Assembly: GCA_018402085.1 (NCBI GenBank)
Contig: JAGYJM010000002.1
Span: 2,619,501 to 2,683,500 of the forward strand
From: Flavobacteriales bacterium
Lineage (GTDB): Bacteria > Bacteroidota > Bacteroidia > Flavobacteriales_D > Sanyastnellaceae
DNA: 64,000 bases
Direction: 5' to 3'
A program made the position numbers and the translations under genes. The notes beneath the pieces are model-generated. The model had not been told where the DNA came from and did not search any database. It worked only from the letters and a program-made list of their open reading frames with translations. Positions 51,158-56,451 of the stretch are shown in pieces; the first letter of the stretch is position 1; each line of letters begins with the position of its first letter.

Positions 51158-51165
51158 TACATTTG
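51158..51165 (+). promoter_or_regulatory. Promoter -7 box of the cyoE-cox operon
   Basis: TACATTTG followed by CA matches TAnnTTTG and ends 6 bases before the cyoE ATG at 51172, so the transcript would be nearly leaderless. This places the main start of the oxidase operon here. Confidence 0.55.
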
Positions 51166-51171
51166 CAGCCA

Positions 51172-52083
51172 ATGAACGAGCCCGTTAAGACAGCATCAGG
51201 CCTGTCTAAATCTGTTTCTTTTGCCCGCTTCAGAGATTTGGCGGCATTTTTCAAGCTCCGGCTGTCGTTGATCGTTGTGCTCTCAGCAATCCTCGGCTAC
51301 TTTATGGGTACGTCAACGGCCGACTGGGGAGCCCTTGCGGCGCTGTCACTTGGCGGCTTGCTTCTTACAGGAGCGAGCAACGGATTTAACCAGGTCTGGG
51401 AACGTGACCTCGATCGTCTGATGCGCCGAACCGAAGATCGTCCACTGCCGTCTGGACGCATGTCAGTGGTTGAAGGACTCCTCATTGCCGGTGTAAGTGC
51501 CATAAGCGGAATCCTTATTCTGTGGTTCTTTCTGAATCCGTTGTGTGGCATTCTCGGGGTGATCGCGATCTTCTTCTATGTATTTCTATACACTCCGATG
51601 AAGCAGAAGAGTGCGCTTGCGGTGTTCATCGGTGCTTTTCCGGGGGCGATTCCTCCAATGCTAGGCTACGTGGCCGCAACCGGCGAGTTCGGTGTTGAAC
51701 CTGGCGCCTTATTTGCCACTCAATTTATGTGGCAATTTCCTCACTTTTGGGCAATAGCATGGGTCGCTCATGACGATTACCAGCGCGCCGGATACAAATT
51801 ACTGCCTTTCAATGCAGGACGCAGCAAGCGTTCAGCCTTTCAAATTCTACTTTACAGTTTGTTCCTGATTCCAGTCAGCCTTCTACCCTGGGCCTTGCCC
51901 GCAGAGGCCCCGATGATTGGCAATGCAGGGATGACGATTGTGCTTGCGTCAGGTCTGGCTTTTGCCTGGCTGGCTTTCCGCCTGTACCGCTCAAGCACCA
52001 CCAAAGATGCCAAAATCCTGATGTTTGCTTCATTCATCTACCTTCCGATCGTTCAAGTTATGTACGTGATCGATAAACTCTAA
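51172..52083 (+). CDS. cyoE: Protoheme IX farnesyltransferase (heme O synthase)
   Basis: CyoE/CtaB adds the farnesyl group to heme B to make heme O, the precursor of heme A for the oxidase. The 303-residue protein starts at the ATG at 51172; a TTG at 51163 is an alternative. It has about nine helices of the UbiA family, with the first Asp-rich loop NQVWERDLDRLMRRTEDRPL and the second, WAIAWVAHDDYQRAGYKLLP. It heads the operon of subunit-III-like, subunit IV and SCO genes, the usual Bacteroidota order. Confidence 0.96.
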   Translation: MNEPVKTASGLSKSVSFARFRDLAAFFKLRLSLIVVLSAILGYFMGTSTADWGALAALSLGGLLLTGASNGFNQVWERDLDRLMRRTEDRPLPSGRMSVVEGLLIAGVSAISGILILWFFLNPLCGILGVIAIFFYVFLYTPMKQKSALAVFIGAFPGAIPPMLGYVAATGEFGVEPGALFATQFMWQFPHFWAIAWVAHDDYQRAGYKLLPFNAGRSKRSAFQILLYSLFLIPVSLLPWALPAEAPMIGNAGMTIVLASGLAFAWLAFRLYRSSTTKDAKILMFASFIYLPIVQVMYVIDKL

Positions 52084-52085
52084 GT

Positions 52086-52886
52086 ATGAGCACAGACCAA
52101 ATTGAAGTAAGCGAGGAAGGAAACAACAAAAAAGATGTATTTGCTGACTTCTCACCCGAAGTAAGAGAGCGCACGAAAAAGATGCTGATGTACTTCATCA
52201 TCTTCGCAATAGTTATGCTCTTTGCCGGCTTTACCTCGGCCTATATTGTGAGCAATATGGGCAAATACTGGGTGCATATAGAAGCGCCTCCGAGCCTTTG
52301 GATCAGCAACCTTATCATCATCGCCAGTAGCGGAACGATCTGGATGGCTCTTCGTGCGATGAAGCAGGGAAAGAAGCAACAGTCTTTGATCTTGATGGCA
52401 GTAACCCTTCTGCTGGGCATTTTTTTCACGCTTACCCAAACCAAAGCCTGGGAAACCCTCAGCGAAAGAGGTATGGGCTGGACGGTCTCAGAAAACGGTC
52501 AGGGACTCGAAGCATACAAGTGGAACAGCGTTGACAAGATTCAGGGTGAGTACGGTGAAGACTACTACATTCAGAAGAATGGGCAGCAACTGATCTTTAA
52601 CAACGGCGAGTATTATGCAGCGAATGATGTACTCATGACCGAACCGCTGACCCGTGAAGTGAAACAAGTGACCAACAGCTCCGGCTCTTACATCTGGGCG
52701 TTGATCATCGTACACGTCCTTCACCTGGTTTTCGGACTGATTTACCTCTCAATCAATACGATACGAATTTACACAGGCGTAATTCACCCCGGAGACACCA
52801 TTCGTCTTTACACAAATGGGATGTACTGGCATTTCTTGGGTATATTGTGGCTGTATTTGTTCGTCTTTTTGTTCCTTATTCACTAA
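52086..52886 (+). CDS. Cytochrome c oxidase subunit III-like protein, first copy
   Basis: This 266-residue membrane protein belongs to the heme-copper oxidase subunit III family. It opens with a soluble acidic stretch (to about residue 33), then membrane helices (MYFIIFAIVMLFAGFTSAYI and others), and ends with YWHFLGILWLYLFVFLFLI, the usual subunit III C-terminal helix. Between TQTKAWETLSERGMG and SYIWALIIVHVLHLVFG is a soluble insert of about 60 residues, at the place where the second copy also has one. It starts 2 bases after cyoE. Subunits I and II are not in the window. Confidence 0.88.
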   Translation: MSTDQIEVSEEGNNKKDVFADFSPEVRERTKKMLMYFIIFAIVMLFAGFTSAYIVSNMGKYWVHIEAPPSLWISNLIIIASSGTIWMALRAMKQGKKQQSLILMAVTLLLGIFFTLTQTKAWETLSERGMGWTVSENGQGLEAYKWNSVDKIQGEYGEDYYIQKNGQQLIFNNGEYYAANDVLMTEPLTREVKQVTNSSGSYIWALIIVHVLHLVFGLIYLSINTIRIYTGVIHPGDTIRLYTNGMYWHFLGILWLYLFVFLFLIH

Positions 52887-52910: not shown

Positions 52911-53903
52911 ATGGCAGGAGAAGCAACGAAATCGATCCCTAAAGAAGTTCTCTGGGGAGGTGGTAGGTCACCATTCAGCGTGAGCTACGGTAAAATGATG
53001 ATGTGGTACTTTCTGGTGTCAGATGCACTGACATTCGGAGGGCTATTGGTAGCATACGGCTTCGTCCGTCACGGCGCAGAGGTGCCATGGCCGATTGGAG
53101 AGCAAGTGTTTGAGGCACTACCTTTGCTGGAGGGGCATTACCCTCTCGCTTACGTGGCTTTAATGACCTTCATCCTGATCATTTCATCTGTAACGATGGT
53201 ACTTGGCGTTGAAGCCGGGCACCGTAATGATCGGAAAGGGGTAACCAAATGGCTCGGTCTTACCATCGTTGGTGGCTTCTTCTTCCTCGGCTCACAAGCC
53301 TGGGAGTGGTCGCACTTCATTCACGGTTCAGGTGGTGCCTTTCAGCTTTCTGAGAGCGTTACGGTCACCGGCACACTTGCAGGAAGTGAAGAGACTAAAG
53401 AGTTCACCCTTACTGCGGGTGATCGCGTTTACATGGATCACCACTTCGGCAGCCTGATGGAAAAATACCACGACGGAGACCGAATGGTTACCATGGCAGC
53501 AGGCAATGGCGTCGCGCTCATGGAAATGGGTGAACACAGCCATGAAGTGCAGCTCGAATCACTTACACTCAACAAGTATATCGAAGACCGTGCTTATGTC
53601 AGTGGCGATGATATGATGAAGCTCTGGAACGCCCGCTCAGAGAACTTCATTTTTGGAGCCAATCTGCAACACAGCGAATATTCAGAACACCAAGACTATG
53701 CTGGCTTCTTCTTTTTCATCACCGGATTTCACGGTTTTCACGTATTCTCGGGGGTGATTCTCAACATTGTCATCTTCCTGATGGTGTTGAATGGCGTTTT
53801 TGAACGCAGAGGTCATTACGAGATGGTAGAAAAAGTCGGTCTATACTGGCACTTTGTAGACCTGGTATGGGTCTTCGTATTTACCTTTTTCTACCTCGTA
53901 TAA
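52911..53903 (+). CDS. Cytochrome c oxidase subunit III, second copy
   Basis: This 330-residue subunit III has helices starting with SYGKMMMWYFLVSDALTFGG, and EWSHFIH and GFHGFHVFSGVILN carry the family's conserved polar and His positions. It ends in LYWHFVDLVWVFVFTFFYLV. A large insert of about 110 soluble residues between QAWEWSHF and FFFFITGFHG includes YMDHHFGSLMEKYHDGDRM. It is followed 11 bases later by the subunit IV gene. Confidence 0.92.
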   Translation: MAGEATKSIPKEVLWGGGRSPFSVSYGKMMMWYFLVSDALTFGGLLVAYGFVRHGAEVPWPIGEQVFEALPLLEGHYPLAYVALMTFILIISSVTMVLGVEAGHRNDRKGVTKWLGLTIVGGFFFLGSQAWEWSHFIHGSGGAFQLSESVTVTGTLAGSEETKEFTLTAGDRVYMDHHFGSLMEKYHDGDRMVTMAAGNGVALMEMGEHSHEVQLESLTLNKYIEDRAYVSGDDMMKLWNARSENFIFGANLQHSEYSEHQDYAGFFFFITGFHGFHVFSGVILNIVIFLMVLNGVFERRGHYEMVEKVGLYWHFVDLVWVFVFTFFYLV

Positions 53904-53914
53904 AACTTTGAAAG

Positions 53915-54292
53915 ATGGAAAGAGACGACCTGATTGTTAACGATTCTTACGCCGCGAATGCTACGCACTCTGAAGAAGATGGTGTAAAGATTCGCCGAAA
54001 TATCTGGAAGGTGACCGGTATCTTGACCGCGCTGACCTTTCTAGAGGTGATGATGGGTATTTACTTCAAACGCAGTGAAACCTTCACCTGGGAGGCGATC
54101 AAATGGAGCTTCATCGTTTTGACCCTGGTCAAAGCGGGCTACATTGTTATGGTGTTCATGCACCTCGGTGAAGAGCGCAAGAACCTGAGACGTATAATCC
54201 TTGTTCCTTATGCGATATTTGTCTTATATCTGATCTTTATCGCTCTGAGTGAGGGGCTCTCCCACTTCGATCTCTGGGAAACCTGGAAGTAG
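53915..54292 (+). CDS. Cytochrome c oxidase subunit IV family protein
   Basis: This 125-residue protein has three hydrophobic helices, including WKVTGILTALTFLEVMMGIY and LVKAGYIVMVFMHLGEERKN. The VMVFMHL stretch is typical of prokaryotic subunit IV (CyoD/CoxD-like). A soluble acidic N-terminus of about 30 residues precedes them. It is a small stabilising subunit of the oxidase. Its TAG stop is immediately followed by the ATG of the SCO-like gene, so the two are tightly packed, yet a terminator-like hairpin begins 24 bases later. Confidence 0.9.
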   Translation: MERDDLIVNDSYAANATHSEEDGVKIRRNIWKVTGILTALTFLEVMMGIYFKRSETFTWEAIKWSFIVLTLVKAGYIVMVFMHLGEERKNLRRIILVPYAIFVLYLIFIALSEGLSHFDLWETWK

Positions 54293-54982
54293 ATGAACAA
54301 CCGAAAGAAAATTTTAAAGTACACCCTTCTGATAGGTGTACTTTTTTTATTTCCACTGAGTTTGCTGCTCTTCTTTGGAGTGCTGACAAGGCATGAATTC
54401 AATACCATGCCTTACCTCGGGCCTCATAAGATAAACCCGGAGCAGCCAGAAGACACCATCTACCATCGGCTCCCTGACTTTAAACTCCTGAATCAAGAAG
54501 GTGAGGTGTATACCCTCGATTCGCTTCAAGGTAAAGTCTGGCTTGCAGCATTTTATGCCACAAATGCACCGTACATCAAAAAAGTCACTGCGCGTCTGCT
54601 CTGGCCCAACTTCAGGTACAGACATGAAGATGATATTTTGCTTGTTTGCTTCACGCTCGACGCTGATCACGATACTCCTGAAGTGCTCAAAACTTACACT
54701 GAGCAAATGGTTAAATACCATGACTACCCCGGCAAATGGCAATTTCTGACTGGTGACCAGCCCCAGATCGACCAGATCACTGAAAGAGGATTTCTCCTCG
54801 AAAATCCTGACTCTACCGCATATATGTACCTTGTAGATACAAATGGTCACCTAAGGGCACGGTACAATGCTAACCTTGAAGACCATATTAAAGATGCGAT
54901 TGAAGATATCGCTCTGTTGAAGAAAGAATTAGACCGTGAAGAATATGAGCTTGAAAAGCGTACGAATACTGATTCTGACTAG
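54293..54982 (+). CDS. SCO-like protein lacking the copper ligands
   Basis: This 229-residue protein has an N-terminal membrane anchor (about 9-31) and a thioredoxin-like SCO1/SenC domain in the periplasm. The domain is recognisable from LPDFKLLNQEGEVYTLDSLQ, FTLDADHDTPEVLKTYTEQM and YLVDTNGHLRARYN, each with a counterpart in the next gene. Where SCO proteins have CxxxC, this one has ATNAPYIKK, and the ligand His position reads Ser174. The only Cys is Cys119. It therefore cannot bind copper in the known way. It may be a chaperone partner of the intact SCO, a redox-independent adaptor, or decaying. Length and reading frame are intact, and the gene stays in the operon, which argues against simple decay. 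Confidence 0.85.
   Translation: MNNRKKILKYTLLIGVLFLFPLSLLLFFGVLTRHEFNTMPYLGPHKINPEQPEDTIYHRLPDFKLLNQEGEVYTLDSLQGKVWLAAFYATNAPYIKKVTARLLWPNFRYRHEDDILLVCFTLDADHDTPEVLKTYTEQMVKYHDYPGKWQFLTGDQPQIDQITERGFLLENPDSTAYMYLVDTNGHLRARYNANLEDHIKDAIEDIALLKKELDREEYELEKRTNTDSD
54316..54350 (+). terminator. Terminator-like hairpin inside the 5' end of the SCO-like gene
   Basis: AAAGTACACC-CTTCTGATA-GGTGTACTTT is a perfect 10-bp stem, and T's continue to 54348, seven in all from 54342. It spans codons 8 to 19 of the SCO-like gene and starts 24 bases after the subunit IV stop. It could reduce transcription from the oxidase genes into the SCO genes, with ribosomes on the short leading codons influencing folding. 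Confidence 0.75.
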
Positions 54983-55628
54983 CCTCTCGGCGACGCTCTT
55001 CGCTTGCGGCATCGACTCCACCTCTTCAGCCAATTCGGAGAAGCCCGCCACCCTGCCCCACTTTGGCAATCATGACATTGCTCTTATTAAGCAAGATGAC
55101 GGCTCTATGAAAGCCGACACCCATTATTTCTCCGTCCCTCCTTTTGCGTTTCGCAACCAAAGCGGACGTGAGGTGTCCCACTACGATTATCAAAATCACG
55201 TATATGTGAGTGACTTCTTCTTCACAACCTGCCCAACGATTTGTCCCGTCATGAGCTCACAAATGAGCCGCCTGCAGGAAAAACTGAAGAAAGCCAGGCT
55301 TTTTGGCGAGGTCAAACTACTCTCCCATACAGTTGACCCTGAACACGACACTCCTGAAGTGCTACGTGCGTATGCTGAACGACTTGGTGCCGACACTGCT
55401 CACTGGCATTTTGTAACCGGCGAAAAAGATGATCTTTATGACCAGGCGCGCTACGGATACTTTATGACCGCCCTTGAATCAGATACCGCCGCAGGTGGTT
55501 TTTTCCATTCAGACCAATTTGTTTTGGTAGATCAATCTGGCCACCTTCGAGGATATTACGACGGCACCTCAACAAGTGAGGTCGATCAGCTGTTTAAAGA
55601 CTTACAACTTTTACTCCGAGACCAATGA
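54945..55628 (+). CDS. SCO1/SenC/PrrC copper-chaperone lipoprotein
   Basis: SCO proteins load the CuA site of cytochrome oxidase. I start at the ATG at 54945 (GTG at 54936 is possible), which overlaps the upstream gene by 38 bases. The signal MSLKSVRILILTSLSATLFAC has a lipobox with Cys21. The ligands are complete: Cys96 and Cys100 in FFTTCPTICPVM, and His188 in FFHSDQFVLVD. DPEHDTPEVLRAYAERLG is the shared SCO helix. The start codon of the DUF420 gene overlaps its end by 4 bases. Confidence 0.93.
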   Translation: MSLKSVRILILTSLSATLFACGIDSTSSANSEKPATLPHFGNHDIALIKQDDGSMKADTHYFSVPPFAFRNQSGREVSHYDYQNHVYVSDFFFTTCPTICPVMSSQMSRLQEKLKKARLFGEVKLLSHTVDPEHDTPEVLRAYAERLGADTAHWHFVTGEKDDLYDQARYGYFMTALESDTAAGGFFHSDQFVLVDQSGHLRGYYDGTSTSEVDQLFKDLQLLLRDQ

Positions 55629-56188
55629 GTGCATTGAGCATTGTTCAGGATCAGCGAAAAACACGCATGATCATTATCGTTGTCAGCCTGGTGATTCCGA
55701 TTGTTGTCACAGCGCTGCGGTACATTCCAACGCCCGAACTCTCTGATGAAGCAAGGGCCAACTTGTACTTCCTGCCACTTCTCAACGCAATACTGAACGG
55801 TACCACTTTCTTACTGCTGCTTTCAGCACTCGTTGCCATAAAAAAGAAAAACATCAGCGCTCACCGCAAACTCACCACAACGGCAATGGTGCTGTCTGCC
55901 CTTTTTTTGGTGTCGTACATTGTATTTCACTGGACTTGTCCTGAAACAACTTACGGTGCAGATGGCACCGCCCGGTACATCTACTATTTCATTCTCATCA
56001 CACATGTGATGCTTTCGGCTGTGATTGTGCCTCTGGTATTGTTCGCCTTTACCCATGCCTTCGCAGGACGCTACGACAAGCATAAGAAGATTGTCAAATA
56101 TGCTTACCCAATGTGGCTATACGTGACGCTGACCGGGGTTATTGTGTACGCCATGATACAGCCGTTCTATCCTTACAGCATCTTTTAA
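55625..56188 (+). CDS. DUF420 membrane protein
   Basis: This 187-residue protein matches DUF420, a family usually next to SCO and oxidase genes and thought to help oxidase assembly. It has five or so hydrophobic segments, and LVSYIVFHWTCPETTYG and THVMLSAVIVPLVLFAFTHA carry conserved His and Thr positions. It is coupled to the SCO gene by an ATGA overlap. No catalytic motif is visible. Confidence 0.88.
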   Translation: MSALSIVQDQRKTRMIIIVVSLVIPIVVTALRYIPTPELSDEARANLYFLPLLNAILNGTTFLLLLSALVAIKKKNISAHRKLTTTAMVLSALFLVSYIVFHWTCPETTYGADGTARYIYYFILITHVMLSAVIVPLVLFAFTHAFAGRYDKHKKIVKYAYPMWLYVTLTGVIVYAMIQPFYPYSIF

Positions 56189-56199
56189 CACCATCGCGC

Positions 56200-56451
56200 A
56201 TGACAAATAAGTATCTTCAGGGTATGAAACCGTTTGTAAGCATTCTTCTTGTCATCTTCTTGACCCTTACCCCAGAGATACTTGATGCTCAATGCGTTAT
56301 GTGCAGAGCCGTGGCGGAAGATTCAGCTGCCCAGGGTGGTTTGGGTCGTGGGTTAAACAGTGGTATCCTCTATCTGATGGGAATTCCTTACTTTTTGCTT
56401 GCAATCCTGTACTTCGGGTTTTTCCGAAAAAAAACACAGGCGAAAGTATAA
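56200..56451 (+). CDS. Small membrane protein with CxxC, end of the SCO-DUF420 unit
   Basis: I use the ATG at 56200 (MTNKYLQGMKPFVSILLVIF); the frame extends 29 codons into the DUF420 gene, and MKPFV at 56224 is another option. The 83-residue protein has a signal-like helix, then DAQCVMCRAVAEDSAAQG, and a final helix (LYLMGIPYFLLAILYFGFF) with a basic tail. CVMC could bind a metal or be redox active, which would suit oxidase assembly. Small proteins of this shape often follow DUF420 genes in Bacteroidota; I know no function. Confidence 0.75.
   Translation: MTNKYLQGMKPFVSILLVIFLTLTPEILDAQCVMCRAVAEDSAAQGGLGRGLNSGILYLMGIPYFLLAILYFGFFRKKTQAKV

Follow-up and report, generated by a model that had tools for sequence, protein, structure and literature searches.

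Organization of the locus

The window, i.e. the whole stretch of 64,000 nucleotides analysed here, contains an oxidase operon with the gene order cyoE, cox3a, cox3b, cox4, A, B, DUF420 and a small ORF (Table 1). A and B are the tandem SCO-like genes that the initial annotation had placed in the operon, and indeed A was found between cox4 and the intact SCO gene B. Coordinates and frame of the ORF 54293-54982 were verified exactly and its product, A, comprises 229 aa. The genes are tightly packed: A begins at the very next base after the cox4 stop, B initiates at the ATG at 54945 within A, and the DUF420 gene starts inside the end of B with an overlap of 4 nt. With the start at 54945 the residue numbers initially assigned to the metal ligands of B are exact, and all three are kept. 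DUF420 represents the CtaM family, which is described as required in oxidase biogenesis (PMC9145763).

Table 1. Features of the oxidase operon in the window
Feature	Position	Strand	Evidence
Gene presumed to encode a cyoE-like heme farnesyltransferase	51163..52083	+	same place in related loci; named from the sequence
cox3a, subunit III homologue	52086..52886	+	Pfam COX3
cox3b, subunit III homologue	52911..53903	+	Pfam COX3
cox4, subunit IV	53915..54292	+	Pfam COX4_pro
A, SCO-fold protein without metal site	54293..54982, stop counted	+	Pfam, model, alignment
A, N-terminal membrane helix, residues 3-31	54299..54385	+	helix in AlphaFold2 model
A, ATNAPYIKK, residues 89-97, former CxxxC site	54557..54583	+	alignment
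A, conserved helix and loop T99 to R110, just past the lost site	54587..54622	+	55 sequences
A, Ser174, His position	54812..54814	+	alignment
A, long C-terminal helix, residues 196-227, EDIALLKK motif	54878..54973	+	model, alignment
B, intact SCO, 227 aa; LFAC, Cys21 (predicted lipoprotein); Cys96, Cys100, His188	54945..55628	+	
Overlap of A 3' end and B start, 38 nt	54945..54982	+	
DUF420 membrane protein (CtaM family)	55625..56188	+	Pfam DUF420, E 3.1e-41

Two further observations concern the neighbouring genes. The cox3b product has 330 aa here compared with open frames of 283-290 aa in families f2, f4 and f7, and long forms are present in some, not all, of the other two-SCO families. The small ORF 3' of DUF420 (56203-56451) carries a CVMCRA motif, is found at the corresponding position in most family loci and matched nothing in Pfam up to E 1.

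Besides A and B, the genome contains a third SCO match, which is intact and unlinked to them. The CuA ligand pattern C-x3-C-x3-H-x2-M is kept in the genome's only COX2 match, as CNKVCGAAHFNM, and therefore the oxidase should need copper delivery. Subunits I and II are encoded on another contig (near 250070 of G000:C1, locus L258). Subunit II contains a His-rich stretch, EHGHHGHHDDAQDHEGHAHG, which is located between the membrane part and the CuA part and might bind metal.

Loss of the metal site in A

A matched the Pfam family SCO1-SenC (PF02630) with E 2.2e-10 and 41 bits at a cut-off of 22.8 and is 27% identical to B; neither A nor B had an NCBIfam match up to E 1. The AlphaFold2 model of A (mean pLDDT 89.0; a predicted model only) adopts the SCO-type thioredoxin-like fold. 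Its best VIA-align match was 4hde (Z 21.1, rmsd 2.1, 158 aligned) and the first eight rows were all SCO proteins, with Z from 21.1 to 17.5. The residues that define a SCO1/SenC copper chaperone are nevertheless gone: as read initially, ATNAPYIKK replaces the CxxxC motif, Ser174 occupies the position of the copper-binding His, and the sole Cys of A, Cys119, is located off the site.

We compared 55 loci of the same family, comprising the window, 34 relatives with A and 20 more genomes picked by DUF420. CxxxC was found in none of the A copies (0/55). The proposed loss of the Cys pair thus extends to the whole set; that of the His does not, since this position is occupied by Asn in 44 copies, His in six, Ser in two and Gln, Glu and Arg in one each, and both same-genus relatives are among the six with His. 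The family copies vary in the site loop (residues 89-98). Nine residues are invariant in the 55 sequences, namely H34, F36, T99, L103, N106, R188, Y191, D205 and K211. A replacement metal site in A was considered and rejected because no nearby Cys or His is conserved in the family.

The two proteins also differ at their N-termini. In all 28 tandem pairs of the family A has a hydrophobic N-terminus without a lipobox, and both sequence and model predict that an N-terminal helix anchors it. B has a lipobox by pattern in 26 of these 28 pairs, and in the other two the region resembles one by eye. We class A as a putative SCO-fold pseudo-chaperone and not as an SCO copper chaperone.

Retention and selection

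Of 36 family relatives sampled, 34 have A, and the two that lack it are genomes of 86-87% completeness. Seven pairs with finite dS yielded dN/dS ratios (NG86) for A of 0.030, 0.042, 0.045, 0.047, 0.059, 0.074 and 0.079; one further pair was saturated. These ratios are rough, because dS exceeded 1 in four of the seven pairs and one locus is common to two pairs, but all are far below 1. The corresponding values were 0.023-0.067 for B (six of the seven pairs) and 0.073-0.089 for whole fused ORFs (three pairs). Moreover, 90 of the 2061 possible single-base changes in A create a stop, so that 0.5 neutral changes per site would be expected to introduce about 15 new stops. The relatives nevertheless have an open frame, which together with the low dN/dS goes beyond chance.

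The initial annotation had regarded frame and operon position of A as intact and the gene as retained; both views withstood the comparison, as the frame is exact and open in relatives, the operon slot is fixed, none of the 55 family copies of A has the cysteines and dN/dS is not near 1. The strong conservation, together with the fusion of A to B in some relatives, suggests that A is probably a membrane-anchored helper and not a decaying gene.

Fusions of A and B

A single ORF encodes A and B in 25 of the 55 family loci and keeps both domains and the A anchor. Eight aligned fusions consist of the A anchor, the whole A domain including its C-terminal helix, a short linker and B with CPTIC and His; the linkers of these eight contain no lipobox. 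Four fused loci were found in a second family, f3. A contig collection, which partly repeats the family genomes already sampled, was scanned with a single EDIALLKK-like peptide pattern, which restricts the yield to copies bearing this motif. Of the 37 loci obtained, 36 were taken as true and 20 of these are fused. The match in L107 (Leptospiraceae) spans residues 178-212 only and was taken as chance.

On the slot tree (without L129, L147, L170 and rows below 170 aa) the fused label needs four changes, three of them within the window's family, and hence the fusion likely arose at least two times. Within this family the tree may reflect repeated gain of the fusion or later splitting, as it is compatible with both. 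Such natural fusions argue for joint action of the two proteins, and also that the A domain, beyond its helix, is worth keeping. The proposal that A acts as a partner of the intact SCO is accordingly well supported at the sequence level, by fusions in two families and by the overlapping frames. The model of a fused protein has two good domains, but with a pTM of 0.61 their placement is untrustworthy and the interface is not fixed.

Distribution in Bacteroidia and ancestry

DUF420 served as operon locator in 147 of 150 genomes of the order and 111 of 119 of the class, both draws including the window's family. From its hits 120 regions were hand-picked and other collected loci were added; no SCO was found in 11 fetched loci. 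The sampled Bacteroidia contained two SCOs in 99 loci, in 70 as a tandem and in 29 as a fusion. The upstream SCO lacked CxxxC or His in all 99, and the downstream one had both in 98, the remaining locus having an ambiguous base at a Cys. How the site was lost depends on the group. The Cys pair is gone from A in 53 of 53 two-SCO loci of the window's family; in the other families of the order A has lost the His and keeps CxxxC, some with wider spacing, in 41 of 41. Among the class-level pairs it is gone in five of five, where two of the A copies are weak SCO calls (L178 with 19 bits, L215 with 26 bits). The pattern of an A without a complete metal site reaches far beyond the operon of the window. 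The class-wide counts are not independent events because the genomes are related.

Where the slot holds a lone SCO, it is intact in 17 of 18 loci of the order, three of which (L042, L161, L164) are of doubtful lone status as an upstream A may lie beyond the stretch. In the class 27 of 44 lone copies are intact and the other 17 are degenerate with no B alongside; weak calls among lone copies are L184 (17 bits), L196 (24 bits) and L181 (29 bits). All 18 genomes with a degenerate lone slot copy, the set to which this count is confined, have an SCO with CxxxC and His elsewhere. By hand, L170 (73 aa, contig end) and L057 (B over two frames) were left out of the lone-copy tallies and L129 (A over two frames) out of the 99; the contig-collection loci L071-L106 are not part of the class-wide counts. 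The splits in L057 and L129 represent either sequencing error or decay. In L135 (G067) both Cys of the lone slot SCO are replaced (RSSTNGP) and the His is kept; the other sampled copies of its family are intact and its genome carries an intact SCO elsewhere. The Cys loss in L135 may be recent.

For the ancestry tree, pieces shorter than 180 aa (from L035 and L057) were left out. The A copies of the window's family form one clade (SH-aLRT 99), whose sister (95) is the clade of His-less A copies of other families (98). Both A clades are placed together with intact single SCOs that carry a TM anchor and belong to the same order (SH-aLRT 87), and apart from B; L042 and L043, two other single copies, fall with B. 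This topology fits a duplication after which the helix anchor stayed with A and the chemistry with B. Seven changes of Cys state were counted on the slot tree, which is a rough figure because that tree joins long branches.

Relation to known SCO proteins

The closest known case to A is plant HCC2, likewise a paralogue with SCO fold and N-terminal membrane anchor that lacks both Cys and the His and exists beside an intact paralogue (PMC3971200, PMC6696091, PMC6307045). The HCC2-type definition, an SCO homologue that has neither CxxxC nor His and is accompanied by an intact paralogue (PMC3971200), applies to A. In contrast to HCC2, A is bacterial, lies in an oxidase operon and overlaps or is sometimes fused to an intact SCO, which is a predicted lipoprotein. 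The grouping of A with TM-anchored intact SCOs, in a tree of Bacteroidia sequences, hints that A lost its metal site independently of HCC2. HCC2 is reported to interact with the metallochaperone module in a review (PMC6696091). The same review calls the replacement of other SCOs by family members without copper ligands, such as HCC2, very surprising and infers that the family has a further role (PMC6696091).

The human SCO1/SCO2 and yeast Sco1/Sco2 pairs resemble the operon in that two SCO paralogues accompany one CuA site; however, the copper motif is kept there and lost here in one member (PMC6696091, PMC3971200). The A of other families, which has lost the His but keeps CxxxC, would be nearer to a pair of reductase and chaperone. 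Among bacterial structures A resembles BsSco (YpmQ, 1xzo; VIA-align Z 20.1, phmmer E 5.9e-12) and the SCO1/SenC lipoprotein 4hde (phmmer E 1.3e-11), but differs from both in lacking CxxxC and His and in its predicted anchor, a helix and not a lipid.

The titles and abstract openings among the literature matches listed contained nothing on bacterial metal-less SCO pairs or fusions. Cys-less bacterial SCOs may have been mentioned earlier, for instance by Banci et al. (2007), who dealt with SCO function on the basis of genome analysis. Bizionia argentinensis is a member of the Flavobacteriaceae. For this species a paper describes two SCO proteins, both with CxxxC, and the text consulted mentions no metal-less one (PMC11213822). 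The operons described here are bacterial cases in which a metal-less SCO is tied to an intact SCO by frame overlap and fusion, and therefore a role of the SCO fold beyond copper and thiols becomes directly testable. They also call for caution, as an SCO annotation by itself is no proof of a copper site.

Proposed role of A

With moderate confidence, and on comparative grounds, we favour that A is a membrane-anchored SCO pseudo-chaperone which would dock B at the nascent oxidase. A would be an SCO domain on a membrane anchor that has given up copper and thiol chemistry and been retained as partner of B; it would hold or orient B beside the nascent oxidase and contribute the anchor and a docking surface. 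The chemistry would be left to B, the intact lipoprotein SCO, which would deliver copper to the CuA site in subunit II. Candidate contact surfaces on A are the patch of T99, L103, N106, Y109 and R110 and the C-terminal EDIALLKK helix. The distances of A and B correlate with a partial r of 0.39 when three other genes are allowed for (0 of 999 permutations as high; 50 of the 55 family loci, the five without complete gene sets being left out). We give this little weight, since the permutation ignores relatedness and the value for A and cox3b is nearly equal (partial r 0.37). A may therefore belong to the oxidase as much as to B, and the degenerate lone copies of the class indicate that adjacency to B is dispensable in some lineages.

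These two points, together with the position of A immediately 3' of the subunit genes, would suit a role of A as accessory structural subunit in the oxidase complex, its tie to B reflecting ancestry and gene order. Adjacent genes can fuse without a functional tie, a point that also counts against the docking reading. Yet in the fusions seen the partner of A is always B and never a subunit, and two A proteins (that of the window and one of another family) had no sequence match among PDB oxidase chains, which would still be compatible with a subunit; we consider a subunit role rather unlikely. It is less probable still that A serves in stress, redox or copper sensing outside oxidase assembly, as proposed for HCC2. 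That protein is without the same residues, and it is reported as dispensable for oxidase function and as protecting yeast from oxidative stress (PMC3971200, PMC6307045). A is, however, locked into the oxidase operon, and 13 of the 55 family copies have no Cys past residue 40, so that a thiol-based redox role is not general.

As another option, A could serve B or CoxB as a thiol partner; human SCO2 is described as a thiol reductase alongside SCO1 (PMC6696091). The CxxxC kept without His throughout the two-SCO loci of the order's other families points to a thiol role there and counts against the pseudo-chaperone reading. For the window's family, where every A copy lacks the Cys pair, such a role is very improbable; it may hold for the relatives instead. 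Decay of A, to which only the variable site loop would correspond, was rejected on the dN/dS values and on the retention among relatives and is hardly credible.

Extending the docking role of A to other lineages, we tentatively propose, at somewhat under even chances, that many Bacteroidia possess a two-domain SCO machine for CuA, in which a metal-dead anchored half and a live lipoprotein SCO would act as heterodimer or fused. The dead half would have arisen repeatedly once copper delivery had passed to a second intact SCO, in some lineages perhaps through a thiol stage that retained CxxxC only. A copies without His and with CxxxC were found in L038, L047, L054, L058-L061 and L128-L167, and this upstream SCO of the other families is a candidate for a thiol partner to the intact copy.
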